Assembly (NCBI GenBank): GCA_902794475.1
Contig: CADBHR010000010.1
Span: forward strand, 1-42,822
Direction of reading: 5' to 3'
Length of the DNA: 42,822 bases
Source of the DNA: an uncultured Methanobrevibacter sp.
GTDB lineage: Archaea > Methanobacteriota > Methanobacteria > Methanobacteriales > Methanobacteriaceae
The position numbers and the translations under genes are program-made. The notes below the pieces were generated by a model. That model saw only the letters and a program-made list of their open reading frames with translations, did no database searches and was not told the DNA's origin. Positions within the stretch are counted from its first letter, which is position 1. Each line of letters opens with the position of its first letter. This document shows positions 22,925 through 36,096 of this stretch, piece by piece.

Positions 22925-24199
22925 ATGAAAAGAAAGGAAGTTATTCTGTTCATGACAGTAGGAACCGGTACCAATTTAAGTTCAAACGAAGAAAGCTCAA
23001 AAGATCTTGCCCAAAAATTATATTATACAATAGATAAGATGCGACCAAATCATGTTGTATTTTTTGCATCCGACAAATCAAAAGAAACCATAGGATATAT
23101 TGAAGATTTATTTGTAAGGGATAATGATGAATTTATAGAAGGTGAGGATTATCAGATTGTTGAAATAACTGCAATTGATGATTTGAATACCTGTTTTGAA
23201 ACATATGAACAAAAGTTATGGGAATTTGATTACGCCGATAATAAAAAAGATTATCAAATAATAATGGACTATACCTCCGGAACCAAGACAATGTCTGCCG
23301 CAATGGCAAGCTGCGGAATATTCTATTCAAAGGACCTTATTTCAATAGGAGGGGACAGGTCAACAGGCGAGGTTTCAAGAGGAACCGAAATCATCAATTA
23401 TCAAAACATCTACAAGATACATGACAAATTTCTACTAACAAGAATCAGATACAATTTCGATGCAAACCGTTTCATGGCAAGCATCGAAATGATGAACTAC
23501 ATCGTTGATTTGAATATCCATAAGGAATCATTGATTCACCTCTTCAAATCATATTATGCATGGGACAATATGGATTTTGAAGAGGCATACAACCATCTAA
23601 GACAAGTGGATGCCAATCAAATGGAGCTGAACGATATCAAAAACGACATTAAATTCAATCTGAAAGCTCTTGGAAACATCATGAATTCAAGATCAGTCAA
23701 CTTGAAAAACTGCTATATTCTTGCAAGCCTGATTAATAATTCAATAAGAAGGTCTGAAGAGTTCAAATATGATGATGCCATAGCAAGATTATACAGGTCA
23801 CTGGAATTGATTGCACAAATTGAATTAACAAAATATAACCTGAAAAGCTCAGACATTAAAGTTTCAACACTTAAGGAAAACAATGTATCCGATGAATTCA
23901 TAGCAGAATTAGAAAAAATAAGAGAAGACGGAAAAATAAGAATAGGACTTGAAAAAGATTTCCTACTTTTGAATGAACTGGGAAATGAACTGGGCAAGTA
24001 TTATATTGAAAACAAATCCAAAATTAAAAATTTAACTAAAAAAAGAAACAACTCCATTTTAGCACATGGCCTTGATTCATTAACCAAAAAAGACTTTGAT
24101 GAATTCTTAGATATCGTACTCAATTTATCATATACTTTGGATAAGGATATGAAAAAATTCTTAAAGCAAACCAAATTCGCAAAATTTGATTTAGACTAA
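22925..24199 (+). CDS. CARF-HEPN ribonuclease, Csm6/TIGR02710-like
   Basis: A 424-residue protein of the CRISPR-linked CARF group. The N-terminal Rossmann-like CARF domain has VGTGTN (12-17) and DYTSGTKTMSAAMA (115-128), which bind cyclic oligoadenylate in relatives. Residues about 280-300 (IARLYRSLELIAQIEL) match the TIGR02710 family. RNNSILAH (R374 to H381) is a HEPN Rx6H ribonuclease motif. In type III CRISPR systems such enzymes degrade RNA when activated by cyclic oligoadenylate. No cas gene or array is in the window. GTGAT precedes ATG 22925. Confidence 0.8.
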   Translation: MKRKEVILFMTVGTGTNLSSNEESSKDLAQKLYYTIDKMRPNHVVFFASDKSKETIGYIEDLFVRDNDEFIEGEDYQIVEITAIDDLNTCFETYEQKLWEFDYADNKKDYQIIMDYTSGTKTMSAAMASCGIFYSKDLISIGGDRSTGEVSRGTEIINYQNIYKIHDKFLLTRIRYNFDANRFMASIEMMNYIVDLNIHKESLIHLFKSYYAWDNMDFEEAYNHLRQVDANQMELNDIKNDIKFNLKALGNIMNSRSVNLKNCYILASLINNSIRRSEEFKYDDAIARLYRSLELIAQIELTKYNLKSSDIKVSTLKENNVSDEFIAELEKIREDGKIRIGLEKDFLLLNELGNELGKYYIENKSKIKNLTKKRNNSILAHGLDSLTKKDFDEFLDIVLNLSYTLDKDMKKFLKQTKFAKFDLD

Positions 24200-24251: not shown

Positions 24252-26864
24252 TTAGAAAGGAAGACTTGCATAAGTTCCTGATAAGGAAAATGATTTAGTA
24301 TTCCAATTAACTATATTACCAAATGAATTTCTTGAACTTGTTGGGTCTACAACATACCAATAGTTGTCAACACATACTTGAGCCCATACATGACCGTATG
24401 TACTTCCACTGGAGAATGTACATGTTCCGTGAACGTATCTGGCAGGAATGCCTGCGGTCCTTAACATTGCAACAAGTAAATGAGCCTGGTCTACACAATT
24501 TCCTGATCCAGCATTATAGGTACCTACTGCACCATAGTGTGTGTCATAATAGAAACTGTATGAAATGGAATCTCTTACAAAGTTGTAAATTGCCTTAGCC
24601 TTGGCTAAATCAGTAGTCAAGTCTTTAGTAAGTGAATTTACTTTTGATTTGAGTTTAGAGTTTCCAACTTGACAATTAGATGTAGATTTAAGATAAATAC
24701 TTAAGTCTTTAACTGTATTCTTCTGATTCAAACCTGTTCCACCTTGTGAACTTGAAGATCCTGAACCATAAGTGATTGTACAGTAATTTGGTAAATATTT
24801 ATCATTGTCTGCATAAAATACTAAAATCCTAGAGAATGCATCACCCAATTCACCATATATGATTTTTCCAACAGCTGAATTAGCAAAATTAGGTGCCTGT
24901 TTATTATTATTAATATAGGTCACAAGATTTTTTGCTACAGTTAGATAATCTTTCTTATATAATTCAATTGAACTAATAGTGTCTCCAGAAGGTGATGAAG
25001 GTGCTTTGACCCCAGTCAAAATACCGACATTTCCAGTTTTTGAATTGCCTAACTCACTAATAGCTTCACCCATTACATATAAAAATTCAGGCATTGTAAA
25101 TTTGAGTCCACCTGCAGTTACAGTAGCAGGCAATTTTTCATTGCTTGCATAATATGATTTAACTGTTCTTGCACCAGCGATAACATTTGCAAGAGATATG
25201 GTGTCAATTTTTTTCACAGTTAAATCAGCTGTACCATAACTTGGAGCATTTAGATTGCTTCCGCCATATTGATATGAAACAGAATATGTGCCCGGTGTGA
25301 AACTAGCACTAACAGTTGCATAACCATCGGAAGATGTTTTAGCATTGTAATATTTGGAATTTACATTCAAAAGAACATTTCCATTGGATACAGGTTTATT
25401 ATTTGAATCAAGCACTAAGATTTTACAATTTTGAGTGCCTTGATAAAATGTGGTTTCACTTTTCCAGCTTACTGAAGTAACTGCTCTTTCAACAACACTA
25501 ATCGGAGTTGATCCGGATTTTGCATTAAGTTTAGAAGTTGCTGAATGAGAGTATTTGATTGTATATTGACCAATGTCTAAATTAATTGGTAATGAAACAA
25601 TTCCTTTGCTGTTAGTAGTTTTGGTGTATTTTTGACCATCAACATTGAGTGTTACTTTTTTATTGGTAATTGGAACGCTTCCAGATGTTAAAGCTAATTT
25701 GAATTGTGTTCCTGCATCCTTACCGAATGTTTTTGTACTTTTAACAGTGTAGGTAGGGTTTTTAGATGGAATAATTATAACTTTATCACTTGCACTGGAT
25801 GCTTTGTAATAACCAAACTTGTTAAATTGATATTTTGCAGTGTAAATTCCTTCTTTTAGTGAAGGCAATTTAAATGTGGCAACACCGTTTTTATTGGTGG
25901 TTGCAGTGTATTTTTTACCGTCAATTTTTAATTTGATAACTTTACCTGATTTTGGAGCGTAACCAAATTCGTTAAGTAATTTAACCTTTACCTTTTTGGC
26001 ATCACTTTTCAGGAAAGTGTAGGTTTTAGTGGTTAATGAAGATTTAGCTAATGTAACCACTTTCACTTTATTGGTTTTTGTCAAACCGTCTCTATTATAT
26101 GATATGATTTTATAAGTTCCTTTAGGAAGATTAGTTAATGACAAACTAGCTTCCCCTTTACTATTAGTCTTTACTTTGTAGGTTCTACCATTGATTTTAA
26201 ATTGTATATTCTTATTAACCAGAGCTTTTCCCTTTTTATTAAGAAAAGTGGCAGTGTATTTTTTACTATCAGTATAAACTTTACTCATGTCACTTGAAAC
26301 GATTGTTGATAAAACCTTAATCTTTTTAGTTAAAGAATAACCAGTATAATCATTATTTACAACAATTTTATGTGTTCCAGGTTTGAGATTAATAATATCT
26401 AAGGAAGCAACACCTTTACTATTGGTTTTTACAGTATGGCTTTTACCGTCCAATACAAATTTAATATCCTTATTGATTACCGGTGTGCCATTCAGATTTA
26501 AAAATGTTGCGGTATACTTTGCAGTTCCCTTATAATATGTAGTAACATCTTTAGCGGTGATAGTATCTGATATATCAATCTCTGATTGTGCATTATTATC
26601 ACTTACCAAAGAATTACCTTCTTCCATGTTAGTTGATAAAGTACTTGAATCTTCAGATTTTAAAACATCATTTGATGAATCATTATCAACAACAGATTCA
26701 CTCGCCTGCAACTCTGATGAGTCATCACTAGCAATGATTTGTGCATCATCTTGTGAGCCAGAAACATATGAATCTGTAACATTTACATCACTTGCACATA
26801 TTGTACCAACTGATAATGCAGCAGCAAGCACAAAAACGAAAGTGAGTAATATTTTTTTGTTCAA
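24252..26864 (-). CDS. Secreted pseudomurein-binding protein with transglutaminase-like C71 domain
   Basis: An 870-residue exported protein: signal peptide (1-25), a Ser/Asp-rich linker (26-105), and about five Ig-like repeats (106-555). Each repeat carries a variant of KTNSKGVASL followed by GTY-I-Y. Two pseudomurein-binding repeats come next (about 558-700: NVIAGARTVKSYYASNEKLP and NLVTYINNNKQAPN). The C-terminal transglutaminase-like domain has GNCVDQ (C789), GHVWAQV (H824) and VVDPTS (D839). This matches the C-H-D triad of pseudomurein endoisopeptidase-like enzymes (C71). It probably binds and cuts or remodels the wall, or helps adhesion. The start is TTG with GGAGGTAA upstream. Confidence 0.85.
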   Translation of the reverse strand: MNKKILLTFVFVLAAALSVGTICASDVNVTDSYVSGSQDDAQIIASDDSSELQASESVVDNDSSNDVLKSEDSSTLSTNMEEGNSLVSDNNAQSEIDISDTITAKDVTTYYKGTAKYTATFLNLNGTPVINKDIKFVLDGKSHTVKTNSKGVASLDIINLKPGTHKIVVNNDYTGYSLTKKIKVLSTIVSSDMSKVYTDSKKYTATFLNKKGKALVNKNIQFKINGRTYKVKTNSKGEASLSLTNLPKGTYKIISYNRDGLTKTNKVKVVTLAKSSLTTKTYTFLKSDAKKVKVKLLNEFGYAPKSGKVIKLKIDGKKYTATTNKNGVATFKLPSLKEGIYTAKYQFNKFGYYKASSASDKVIIIPSKNPTYTVKSTKTFGKDAGTQFKLALTSGSVPITNKKVTLNVDGQKYTKTTNSKGIVSLPINLDIGQYTIKYSHSATSKLNAKSGSTPISVVERAVTSVSWKSETTFYQGTQNCKILVLDSNNKPVSNGNVLLNVNSKYYNAKTSSDGYATVSASFTPGTYSVSYQYGGSNLNAPSYGTADLTVKKIDTISLANVIAGARTVKSYYASNEKLPATVTAGGLKFTMPEFLYVMGEAISELGNSKTGNVGILTGVKAPSSPSGDTISSIELYKKDYLTVAKNLVTYINNNKQAPNFANSAVGKIIYGELGDAFSRILVFYADNDKYLPNYCTITYGSGSSSSQGGTGLNQKNTVKDLSIYLKSTSNCQVGNSKLKSKVNSLTKDLTTDLAKAKAIYNFVRDSISYSFYYDTHYGAVGTYNAGSGNCVDQAHLLVAMLRTAGIPARYVHGTCTFSSGSTYGHVWAQVCVDNYWYVVDPTSSRNSFGNIVNWNTKSFSLSGTYASLPF

Positions 26865-27346: not shown

Positions 27347-30300
27347 TTATTTTCCCATTGCCTCCTTTTTTTCAATGTCGATATTATCCTCAACTGATAT
27401 TGAAACAGTTGATTTAGATTCATCTTCCAAAATTTTGTTAAGGGTATCCATTTTTTTAGAGTTTTTCATGATGTGCTTGAAATTGAAAAATTCCGAATTT
27501 TCCAGAATGTCCCTAACCTTCTTCCCATCAATTCCTTCACTTTCACTGTCGAAGAATTCCATTTTCTGATTTATGATATCATATTTTTTCCATATCCCGT
27601 AATCGGCACTGCCCAAATCCTTTTTCAGCTTTTTGTTTAAAAATTTAACAGATATTCCAATATCCCGTGCCCTTCTAAAAGTCAACACTCTTGGAATGAT
27701 GACACCCAATTCAAAAATCATGGCAAACACCTTATATTTTTCATCCCCTTCCTTTCCATTGAAATACCACTCATAAATCTCATCGACGCTGATTCCCGCA
27801 TCCCTTGCCAGCTTGACACCAGTAGTCTTATTTTTAGTTATAGCTTCGCCAATTATGGATATTCTTTCCTTAAGGACAATATCCTCGATTTCCTCCCTAT
27901 TCTCATCAAACTCTTCCTCTGATAATGCAGAATTTTTCAAGGCAATCTTCAATGACTTTTTCGACAGCACACTATCGACGAATATATTTATTTTGACATC
28001 AAGCAAATCATGGTAGAAGTCCTTGAAATTCTCATTGCCTGATTTTCCCAATTCATAATAGTAATCCAATTCTCCCTTACTGAGTTTTGCATTTTTAAGA
28101 GATTTGAAGAGTGTTTTTGTCTGAAAATCATTGAGGAATATATCAAGGTGCTTTGGAATGACATTGTTTTCATATAAATAAAACAGATTGCCGTATTTTC
28201 TAAATCCATTTTGACCCAATTCAATGAATTCATCTATTGTTCTGACAGATATATCATAAATTTCAGAGACTTCCATTTTTGACATGCCCTGTTGGAATCC
28301 CCTTACAATCAAATCGACTGTTACCTGATTATTTCTTTTTGAAAATTCATAAAATATGTCAAATTCAGTATGATTAAGCCATTTGTTTATAACAGTATTT
28401 GACAATCCAACGCTTTTTGCCGAATCAGGTTTATTCCTGCCGTCTGTTCTTGCCTGAAGGTATTTGTCCATAAGTTCTTGTGTGGCAGTTAAATAAAAGA
28501 GGGTGGATTTTCTTGTTGATAGGAACATGTCCTGATCTTTAAAGTACCATTTGTTAAATTCCTTTTGAGATATTTCACACTTTTGGATGGCATTGTAGAA
28601 ATCCTCATTTTGGATAATTTCCGTGAATAATCTTTTTCTGCTTTTCTCGTATTCCTCATCAAATCTTAAATAGAACTCAGTCTTTTCTCTTTTGCTTGCA
28701 TTGTAAATTTCCATAAATTCCCTTGGAGTGAGATTTGCATAAAAGATTGCTTCCTGTTTGCTTTTACCTTCCTTTATTCCGTTAATGATTCTCCCTCTCT
28801 TAATCAGATCAGATGTGATTTTTGCATTTTTATTTTCAAAGTCTCTGAACAAATCGGATTCTCCGTGTTTTGACCAAGAGTTATACATATCCCTTGAAAC
28901 ATTTATTTCCCTTAGGATATCCCTTTTGTCCCAATCATTTTTCCGATAATTGATGTATTTGTCCATTAGCAGTTCAGTGGTTTTTAAATAAAATTCCGAA
29001 AGCGTTTTTTCACTTTCATAATACCATTTTAGAAACTCGGTTTTTGTAATCTTAGATAATCTGATGGCCTTATTAAGATTATGATTCCTAAGGTGTTTGA
29101 GTAACATCTTTTGTCTTTTGTGAACGTATTCCCTTTGAAAACTATTATAGAACTCATCATCTGCACTTTCTGATACACTATACATTTTTTCAAAGGCGCT
29201 TTTCGTTATTTTTGCTGATTTTAAAGCATCATTCAATGATTTGTTGTTTTTTAGTTCATCTATAATCACATCCCTCTTGAAGTTACTGTTTTTCTTGGTG
29301 AACCTGCCTGCCATAAACTGATTTTGCCAAAATTGATAAACATCCTTCGGAATATTCAGCCGGATTAAAATGTCCTCGTCGTCCGCTTGGCTTTTCTTCT
29401 TTAGTGTGAAAAAATCATTGACAAGAATATTATTATATAATATGAAAGCATCATTTATTATGCCCTCATCAAAAGATTCCTTTTCACGATAAAACCAGTA
29501 TTTAACATCCAAAGCATTCATTGAAGATTTTTTCATACTTTTTTTAATGTTTTTTGACTGCAAGAGATTTTCCTCAAATGTCTTTTCGATCTTGACTGTG
29601 GCAAGCTTGAAAAATTCCCTATAGGGCTTTTGGTCCCTGCAGCCTTTCTTATATTGTGGAGTCTCCTTCACTTCCTCAGCTGAAATTTCATCCTTGTAAA
29701 ATTTTGTAATCAGCATTCCAATCTCTATGTACTGGTCGATTTCATGGAGATAATTATTAAAATTCTCATGATTGATACGGTAATGCTCCCCGTTATTTGT
29801 TATTGCATCATATTTCGATAAATCCATAAGCAAAAGGATTGCCCGGCTTTCATTGATTCCCGATTCGACCAGATCCTGCCTTGTGAATGGTGCATCATTG
29901 AATGTGTTTTGAATGCCTAACATGAAACTTGCATTCTCTATTTTCTGGTTGCATATTTTGCACATGTTGGACATGGATTTTTTGTTCGAATATCCGCAGA
30001 TGATGCAGTTATCGAAATGGACATCCATATTGGACGGTTTTTTGTAATCGGGAATTTCAATATAGATTTCATTTTCACAAAAATCCCTGAAATATTTCTT
30101 TGATATATAATATAGCCTTCTGTGCAAATCAAATGCGAGGTCCTTTTCTTCGCTATGTCCAAGAGAACTCTTATGGATTCTGTTTCTTAGATTATATGCT
30201 TCCTGAAGTTTGTTTTTGTAGATGTAGCTTATTGCCCCCATCCTGTAAAGGTTATCGATTTTTCTGTAAAATGACTTTAAATGTTTTTCAAGTTTATTAT

Positions 30301-30454
30301 TTGATAGTTTATATATGTCTTTAACCAAATTTTCCAAAAATAAAGTTGCATCGGCCGTTACAGCCCTTGGAGAATTCAAAACATCCTCCTCAAGTTTTAC
30401 GCCGATTTCATACAATTCATTATTAAAATTTTTTAAAAAATCAAAATTTGTCAT
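27347..30454 (-). CDS. HEPN/DUF4145-like protein with zinc ribbon and helix-turn-helix array
   Basis: A 1035-residue cytoplasmic protein of unknown function. Residues about 30-125 resemble DUF4145/HEPN-like domains (LFLENLVKDIY, LRNRIHKS). A four-cysteine zinc ribbon follows (C150, C153, C165, C168), then a helical region. From about 300 to 960 there are roughly 12-13 repeats of 50-75 residues, each with an Ala-Ile/Leu-Ser-type helix-turn-helix core. Examples are LKSAKITKSAFEKMY, RLSKITKTEFLKWYY, KCEISQKEFNKWYF and ARDAGISVDEIYEWYF, often followed by an acidic G-E-D-Fy tail. These resemble terminase-small-subunit or transposase HTHs. An extended nucleic-acid-binding role is inferred. Confidence 0.75.
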   Translation of the reverse strand: MTNFDFLKNFNNELYEIGVKLEEDVLNSPRAVTADATLFLENLVKDIYKLSNNKLEKHLKSFYRKIDNLYRMGAISYIYKNKLQEAYNLRNRIHKSSLGHSEEKDLAFDLHRRLYYISKKYFRDFCENEIYIEIPDYKKPSNMDVHFDNCIICGYSNKKSMSNMCKICNQKIENASFMLGIQNTFNDAPFTRQDLVESGINESRAILLLMDLSKYDAITNNGEHYRINHENFNNYLHEIDQYIEIGMLITKFYKDEISAEEVKETPQYKKGCRDQKPYREFFKLATVKIEKTFEENLLQSKNIKKSMKKSSMNALDVKYWFYREKESFDEGIINDAFILYNNILVNDFFTLKKKSQADDEDILIRLNIPKDVYQFWQNQFMAGRFTKKNSNFKRDVIIDELKNNKSLNDALKSAKITKSAFEKMYSVSESADDEFYNSFQREYVHKRQKMLLKHLRNHNLNKAIRLSKITKTEFLKWYYESEKTLSEFYLKTTELLMDKYINYRKNDWDKRDILREINVSRDMYNSWSKHGESDLFRDFENKNAKITSDLIKRGRIINGIKEGKSKQEAIFYANLTPREFMEIYNASKREKTEFYLRFDEEYEKSRKRLFTEIIQNEDFYNAIQKCEISQKEFNKWYFKDQDMFLSTRKSTLFYLTATQELMDKYLQARTDGRNKPDSAKSVGLSNTVINKWLNHTEFDIFYEFSKRNNQVTVDLIVRGFQQGMSKMEVSEIYDISVRTIDEFIELGQNGFRKYGNLFYLYENNVIPKHLDIFLNDFQTKTLFKSLKNAKLSKGELDYYYELGKSGNENFKDFYHDLLDVKINIFVDSVLSKKSLKIALKNSALSEEEFDENREEIEDIVLKERISIIGEAITKNKTTGVKLARDAGISVDEIYEWYFNGKEGDEKYKVFAMIFELGVIIPRVLTFRRARDIGISVKFLNKKLKKDLGSADYGIWKKYDIINQKMEFFDSESEGIDGKKVRDILENSEFFNFKHIMKNSKKMDTLNKILEDESKSTVSISVEDNIDIEKKEAMGK

Positions 30455-34942: not shown

Positions 34943-36085
34943 TTACTTAATCAAATCATTGTTAGTGATTTCTATTTTTTCAACTACCTTTTGACCTTCA
35001 TCAGCCATATCACTAAACAGGTTAATGGTTTCCTTCATTTGAGGTAATGCCTGAACCTTATAGTTGCTTACATCATTGATGGCCTGAAGAGCTTCTGCAA
35101 ATGCAGCCTTCAATACATCTGGTGAAATCATTGTCTCGGCACTGTGCTTCTGGATTTCGCTTCCTTGGTCCTTAAGCATGTGAGAGGTTGTTTCGATGAT
35201 GTGTTCTGTAGTCTGGTTTAGGATATTAATCTTGTCCATAACAATCTTTTGGTCATAAAGTGCGCTTGCAACCATTACCCCTGTTCTTAAAGCTGATACG
35301 GTTACAGTCTTTGCACGGTTGACTCCACGAATCAATTCCTTATTGTTACGTCTGATTACATTAAGTGAAACGATTCCTTGCTGATTTACAACAATCATCT
35401 GTTGCATATCCATGATTCTCTGCCTTAATGGGAACAATATCTCTTCACGAACAAAATCAATCTTGTTTTGGTCAACACCTTCAATTTCAGCAGTTTGAAT
35501 TTGCGCCTCGATTGATGCATCCATCTGTTTTCCAAGTTCAATATCGGCAAGAAGCTTGTTTGTCACTTCCCTTAAGTAATTTTCTTCATTCAAAAGGGTT
35601 GTATTGTCATTTTGCAATACTTTGCTGCTTTTGTCAAGGGAATCGACAATGTCAGATATGGCCACTTCCGCCTTTTCATATTTTGCAAAGTATTTCCTGA
35701 CAGGATTCATAAGGTTTCCTATGACTCCCTTTTTGGCAAAATCAACTTTGCTTGGGTCCAAATCCTTCATCTGTTTGTTTAATTCCAATAACTGCTCACC
35801 GATATTGTCAGCATCTTTTCCTCCTTTTGTCAAATCAACAAATCTTGTTGCCAACATTTCATTGCGGGATGCTGATCTTGACATTTCATTTAATCCAAAA
35901 TCATCGAGAGGCTTTAGGATGCCTTCTCTTTCCTGAGGATTATTCAAATCGGCATCAAATATTGCCTGTGCATTGTTGCCCGCCTGAGTCTTGAGATTTG
36001 AATCTTCAAGCTTTTCCTTTTCGACATTTAATGATTTTTCTACATCGTCTTTAATACCATCTACATCAAGTGAGAATTCGGCCAT
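34943..36085 (-). CDS. TelA-family toxic-anion (tellurite) resistance protein
   Basis: A 380-residue, largely helical, coiled-coil-rich protein of the TelA/KlaA/YaaN family. Typical blocks are YFAKYEKAEVAISDIVDSLDKS, LLNEENYLREVTNKLLADIELGKQMDASI, FVREEILFPLRQRIMDMQQMI and VVNQQGIVSLNVIRRNNKELIRGVNRA. Relatives support tolerance to tellurite and some antibiotics by an unclear, probably membrane-linked mechanism. ATG 36085 is preferred because AAAGGTGA lies five bases before it; GTG 36094 is in that site. The XpaC-like partner is two genes upstream. Confidence 0.85.
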   Translation of the reverse strand: MAEFSLDVDGIKDDVEKSLNVEKEKLEDSNLKTQAGNNAQAIFDADLNNPQEREGILKPLDDFGLNEMSRSASRNEMLATRFVDLTKGGKDADNIGEQLLELNKQMKDLDPSKVDFAKKGVIGNLMNPVRKYFAKYEKAEVAISDIVDSLDKSSKVLQNDNTTLLNEENYLREVTNKLLADIELGKQMDASIEAQIQTAEIEGVDQNKIDFVREEILFPLRQRIMDMQQMIVVNQQGIVSLNVIRRNNKELIRGVNRAKTVTVSALRTGVMVASALYDQKIVMDKINILNQTTEHIIETTSHMLKDQGSEIQKHSAETMISPDVLKAAFAEALQAINDVSNYKVQALPQMKETINLFSDMADEGQKVVEKIEITNNDLIK

Positions 36086-36096
36086 TTGCATCACCT

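Follow-up and report, generated by a model that had tools for sequence, protein, structure and literature searches.

What does a protein do that strings about a dozen helix-turn-helix (HTH) units along a single chain behind a HEPN-like domain, and is it part of the defenses of the archaeon that encodes it? The question arises from a 42,822-nucleotide stretch of DNA from an uncultured Methanobrevibacter sp. (the whole of this stretch is hereafter the window), in which a first-pass annotation had singled out a 1035-residue reading frame at 27347–30454. We confirmed this frame, which lies on the minus strand (30454–27347) and begins with ATG; the plus strand of the same interval holds no long ORF. 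The ORF calls and orthologs outline a protein, hereafter P0001, composed of a HEPN-like domain, a zinc ribbon, a winged HTH-like segment, an array of ~12 HTH units, and a poorly conserved C-terminal tail (residues 913–1035; 27350–27718, minus strand) with a mean pairwise identity of 0.47 over residues 913–965 and 0.22 over residues 966–1035. P0001 scored above no cut-off in Pfam or NCBIfam and gave no credible match in the PDB with phmmer. Its architecture has no counterpart entry in Pfam, NCBIfam, PADLOC, PHROG or the PDB, in keeping with the original remark that it fits no familiar family. With high confidence, we conclude that this architecture is real and is unclassified in the libraries searched, and that its components are known domain types.

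P0001 carries an array of about twelve HTH units with an internal duplication

The first-pass annotation had described about a dozen HTH-type repeats. Profile self-comparison, a unit HMM, AlphaFold and block alignment all agreed with this description, placing ~12 units at residues 297–912 (27719–29566, minus strand) with a period of ~55 aa and a three-unit super-period of ~160 aa. In its first iteration, the HMM was built solely from units of distant giant relatives, which are described below. This version scored above 13 bits at residues 396–443, 556–604, 780–818 and 885–911 of P0001 (range 13–24 bits), and the best-scoring unit, our example HTH, spans residues 556–601 (28652–28789, minus strand; 24.0 bits). 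Across 24 family proteins, including the giants, it produced 196 matches, compared to 6 when the sequences were reversed and 5 when they were shuffled. Later iterations took in the family itself and so are not independent; they placed 11 units in P0001 at residues 297–329, 397–439, 452–489, 500–539, 556–598, 612–641, 665–704, 719–755, 773–814, 825–851 and 884–910, with a weaker twelfth near residues 352–378 that is detected in some orthologs. The core motif originally proposed for the repeats held up only when relaxed: the exact form matches once, but the relaxed form matches seven times, compared to 0.12 expected and a maximum of 2 in 2000 shuffles.

Comparing slices of the ortholog profile with the whole profile produced off-diagonal matches every ~160 aa. 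The slice covering 386–455 matched 549–614 (98.5%), that covering 452–521 matched 612–685 (98.7%) as well as 298–370 and 775–826, and that covering 520–589 matched 369–430 and 686–737. Direct alignment of residues 393–547 (28814–29278, minus strand) with residues 552–712 (28319–28801, minus strand) gave 52 identities in 155 positions (34%) and a score of 251, against a shuffled maximum of 64 (z = 28.7). These two segments are internal duplicates, each consisting of three units. A second pair, residues 274–376 and 432–527, aligned with z = 8.4. Low complexity or chance as the origin of the repeats was ruled out by the shuffles.

An AlphaFold model of residues 388–710, made with three sequences, had a mean pLDDT of 83.2 and a pTM of 0.56, at which the arrangement from unit to unit is unreliable. 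Within it are six successive units of helix, short helix, 3–4 residue turn and helix, the geometry of an HTH, so the predicted structure of the repeats agrees with the folds proposed for them. Foldseek with this model found no match covering the whole array; its local matches were weak (E > 0.05) and included TetR-type/HTH regulators and terminase small subunits. The resemblance to HTHs of terminase small subunits or transposases, also noted at first pass, was recovered from sequence, as the array units matched a PHROG terminase small subunit at 7.6e-6 and HTH_23 at 9e-5. P0001 itself reached 15.8 bits against HTH_28, below the cut-off of 25, and the giant relative L071 lies above the Pfam cut-offs of both HTH_28 and HTH_23. 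PDB sequence searches returned only marginal homeodomain matches. What P0001 has in common with the small subunits of phage terminases (PHROG 4102, 4044) and with the homeodomain-like HTHs of transposases is the sequence of a single unit and the HTH pattern. Unlike the terminase small subunits, it has tandem copies in one chain, no phage context, and no terminase large subunit nearby.

The N-terminus resembles a HEPN domain with an altered spacing

The first 135 residues of P0001 (30050–30454, minus strand) form a putative all-helical HEPN/DUF4145-like domain, identified through matches in relatives, the family alignment, and published HEPN criteria (PMC3710099). Among 17 family members, the N-terminal domains of four match DUF4145 (best 3.4e-5) and one has a HepT-like match (0.0039), which lends support to the HEPN-like start proposed at first pass, though P0001's own copy gave no match. 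A PDB sequence search with the N-terminal domain matched no HEPN structure and, because a three-sequence AlphaFold model of the whole chain reached a mean pLDDT of only 48, the fold assigned to this end of P0001 rests on sequence. The hallmarks of HEPN domains comprise a helix-2 acidic residue, an arginine followed by a polar residue, and a histidine ending helix 3, in an Rx4–6H arrangement (PMC3710099). R90 and H94 of P0001 are invariant in 34 aligned proteins, and N91 is present in most. E41 is a glutamate in 31 of the 33 proteins that have the column and an aspartate in the other two, and it lies within a predicted helix (residues 29–48) of a low-confidence model. The R–H spacing is x3 in 33 of the 34 proteins, outside the canonical x4–6, and x4 in L051 only. 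This Rx3H spacing, as read from the alignment, argues against a canonical HEPN active site, and the altered site may be inactive.

Two genomes (G065, G044) also carry tandem stand-alone copies of the HEPN-like domain (L073:8035–9220 and L074:6496–7310, both minus strand), in which the arginine is kept and the equivalent of H94 is lost; H94 is thus not merely required by the fold. The HEPN-like region is also the best-conserved part of the long clade to which P0001 belongs (see below), with a mean pairwise identity of 0.70, compared to 0.50 across the array and 0.22 at the extreme C-terminus (last 70 residues). The P0001 family is like the DUF4145 branch of HEPN domains (PF13643) in having an all-helical N-terminal domain, an acidic residue in helix 2, and an arginine, a polar residue and a histidine that ends helix 3. 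It differs in its Rx3H spacing and in its long HTH array, which no known member of that branch has in the libraries searched. Fusions of DUF4145-branch HEPN domains to zinc ribbons and HTHs are known, as are operons with restriction–modification, TerD and McrBC genes (PMC3710099). A HEPN effector joined to a nucleic-acid-binding module is a known kind of combination, and the unusual part of P0001 is the length of its array.

Between the HEPN-like domain and the array lies a C4 zinc ribbon at residues 148–172 (29939–30013, minus strand), as the first-pass annotation had recognized; its four cysteines (C150, C153, C165 and C168) are invariant in the 34 aligned proteins. Residues ~180–252 (29699–29917, minus strand) follow a sequence pattern suggestive of a winged helix and are common to the giant relatives, with profile positions 149–243 matching L066, L067 and L068.

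Short and giant relatives keep defense-type gene company

Relatives turned up in 32 of the 139 Methanobacteriaceae genomes covered by a protein search. A profile search of 13 further genomes of the same phylum gave none, the family was never matched in phage, plasmid or IMG/VR collections, and the two matching public contigs are both titled uncultured Methanobrevibacter. Among the genomes and collections searched, the family is thus seen only in Methanobacteriaceae. In a tree of residues 1–300, with a midpoint root only, all long forms, P0001 among them, make up one clade (support 99/97) within a family of short forms. Aligned with P0001, the short forms show a gap of ~160 aa (at about 488–650), indicating that the long form has an extra three-HTH block and the short relatives about one such block fewer.

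The short forms usually have a DUF1232 gene next door. Of the 27 DUF1232 occurrences in the 139 genomes, 17 adjoin an array gene of the short or giant type, and two more DUF1232 genes adjoin other large HTH-unit proteins (L100, L102). With about two array genes per two thousand, we estimate the chance expectation for such adjacency at well below one. This pairing links several unannotated giant proteins. A structural search with DUF1232 gave no informative relative. Short-form loci also hold genes for an AAA ATPase, a DinG-like helicase, and SseB-like, HIRAN-TPR and cold-shock-domain proteins, or a PLD-SF2 helicase-DUF3427 gene (L091 and L092), or Csm6 genes (L047 and L050). Elsewhere, DUF1232 occurs in another recurring cluster (L103, L105 and also L104) with SF2-helicase-like genes and unknown proteins of ~600–650 aa, and at L100:281–5943 it lies between a Csm6 gene and a gene for a 1285-aa protein that has a single HTH unit.

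The family profile extended further, to giant proteins of roughly 1000–1700 aa (L066–L071). They match P0001 over the zinc ribbon plus winged segment, at E-values as low as 9.8e-11, and have HTH units in common with it. Beside them are a BrxC/D-family ATPase (PF10923, 2.9e-93; PADLOC BrxD, 1.3e-72, and SngB, 1.2e-65) and a BrxHI/SngC helicase (3.1e-148 and 9.3e-130, respectively); L079 is a further giant HTH-array protein beside such BrxD/SngB and BrxHI/SngC homologs. All six PF10923-bearing genomes of the window's genus have an array giant in the PF10923 locus, compared to one of eight outside the genus, where one locus is on a 4.4 kb contig. The L066, L067 and L068 giants also contain a repeated ~70-aa 'LP...TGxAWV...WGVxD' domain that is unassigned to a family. 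Two loci encode a second giant with zinc ribbons and HTH units (L069:6018–10562, minus strand; L070:14612–18193, plus strand), and that of L069 has long coiled-coil-like stretches. PADLOC mad1 matches among the relatives were rejected, as they cover a 22–26 residue single-HTH stretch of a 60-position model; P0001 itself did not match mad1 (MADS).

The homologs that adjoin the giants recall two known systems: Shango, which comprises the TerB-like SngA, the ATPase SngB and the helicase SngC, and type 2 BREX with its BrxD/BrxHI pair. BrxD and BrxHI are tightly linked in type 2 BREX, and BrxD is suggested to load BrxHI (PMC12839542). Unlike Shango, the giant loci tested gave no SngA match, with no TerB-like protein detected among those scanned, and Shango as described has no array protein as a component (PMC10250203). 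P0001 differs from both systems in lying outside such an operon.

The window copy lies in conserved chromosomal synteny

The long-clade locus shows chromosomal synteny and no evident defense island. Its conserved neighbors are transglutaminase/adhesin, MFS, MarR, UDG and PNPOx genes; no partner genes were found, and in the window's neighborhood there is no DUF1232, BrxD or helicase partner. The genome from which the window comes (84.8% complete) has no DUF1232 or PF10923 match. Because the window copy lacks its relatives' partners, we infer its function from theirs. The first-pass view that the surrounding genes look accessory was only partly right, given this synteny. The nearest defense-type gene, ~3.2 kb from P0001 and common to four syntenic long loci, encodes a Csm6-like CARF-HEPN protein (22925–24199, plus strand; TIGR02710, 6e-56). 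As PF09670 is widespread (60 of 139 genomes), the occurrence of Csm6 genes near the long loci, through synteny, and near two short ones is suggestive only. The window also contains a large surface protein gene with Big, pseudomurein-binding and transglutaminase domains (24252–26864, minus strand) and, near the UDG and PNPOx genes of the conserved neighborhood, a TelA toxic-anion-resistance gene (34943–36094, minus strand).

Compared to its closest orthologs, the P0001 gene has a dN of 0.14–0.15 with synonymous sites saturated, which marks the long-form gene as old and constrained by purifying selection. The strength of this selection, the lack of any sign of an arms race, fixation of the long clade in conserved synteny without partners, a pI of 8.4 and a possibly inactive Rx3H would all suit a chromosomal DNA-binding protein with an architectural or regulatory role, with an array that coats or bridges DNA at low specificity and a HEPN-like part that only dimerizes. 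We nevertheless consider this account rather unlikely, as such a protein would not be expected to be present so patchily, to have short and giant relatives in defense-like gene company, or to hold H94 invariant when stand-alone copies lose it.

Exposed positions of the array disfavor reading of one fixed site

The first-pass annotation had suggested that such an array could read an extended or repeated stretch of DNA or RNA. If the units read a sequence, the exposed residues of their recognition helices would be expected to show conservation between orthologs or, failing that, a basic character. We anchored the putative recognition helices by eye on the turn and averaged over 12 units, which makes this a coarse test. 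Positions +1, +2, +5 and +9 had pairwise identities of 0.43, 0.31, 0.29 and 0.35, among the least conserved in the repeat and as low as other exposed positions, whereas core positions reached 0.65–0.75. Nor were the putative recognition-helix positions basic; the array has a net charge of +4 over 626 aa. Since the exposed positions are neither conserved nor basic, the reading of one fixed site is disfavored, leaving non-specific binding, rapidly changing targets, RNA, or a scaffold for proteins.

A scaffold, in which the HTH-shaped units build an alpha-solenoid to hold partners and make no nucleic-acid contact, would account for conservation being confined to core positions and for exposed positions that are neither basic nor conserved above other exposed ones. 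The nearest sequence relatives of the units, though, are DNA-binding HTHs (HTH_23, HTH_28 and terminase small subunits), and the zinc ribbon and winged segment likewise point to nucleic acid, making a pure scaffold quite doubtful. A degenerate terminase or transposase derivative, passively carried, is highly improbable: the units do resemble the HTHs of such proteins, but searches of IMG/VR and of phage and plasmid collections gave no family match, neither a terminase large subunit nor a transposase core was found, and the preservation of long ORFs at saturated silent divergence contradicts it.

Discussion

We interpret P0001 as a standalone, defense-type nucleic-acid-binding or scaffold array with a HEPN effector, a mechanism to which we assign a probability of roughly 40%. 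This defense reading is the best supported, mainly through the relatives, and would make P0001 a lineage-specific conflict or defense-type protein of Methanobacteriaceae with a putative antiviral role. The dozen-unit array would be an extended platform that makes many weak nucleic-acid contacts or gathers partners, as opposed to binding one fixed sequence, with the zinc ribbon and winged segment adding further contact. Engagement of the array would bring the HEPN-like domain into action, most likely as an RNase or, if Rx3H is inactive, as a dimerization switch. The idea of an N-terminal effector, raised at first pass, gains from the invariance of R90 and H94 and from the defense-type neighbors of the relatives, and loses from the Rx3H spacing. 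Without its relatives' DUF1232 and helicase partners, the long form would act alone or through genes elsewhere.

In BREX, the multi-HTH proteins BrxA and PglZ have two to three HTH units in a DNA-binding or sensing component (PMC12839542). P0001 likewise has multiple units, about twelve, a parallel in architecture rather than a shown sequence kinship, and adds to them block duplication and a HEPN-like domain in the same chain. A broader proposal, which we regard as speculative and on balance unlikely, is that modular arrays of up to a dozen HTHs are the nucleic-acid sensors of Shango/BREX-like helicase–ATPase systems and also exist in self-contained versions armed with a HEPN RNase, their unit number shifting by three-unit block duplication; together these would constitute a new class of archaeal immunity.

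If the array binds nucleic acid, it would be a naturally occurring modular array that changes in length block by block over evolution. Since genes beside its relatives resemble components of antiviral defense systems, P0001 is probably an unrecognized defense or DNA-surveillance protein of a methane-making gut archaeon, and its family offers a concrete, testable defense candidate in rumen Methanobrevibacter.
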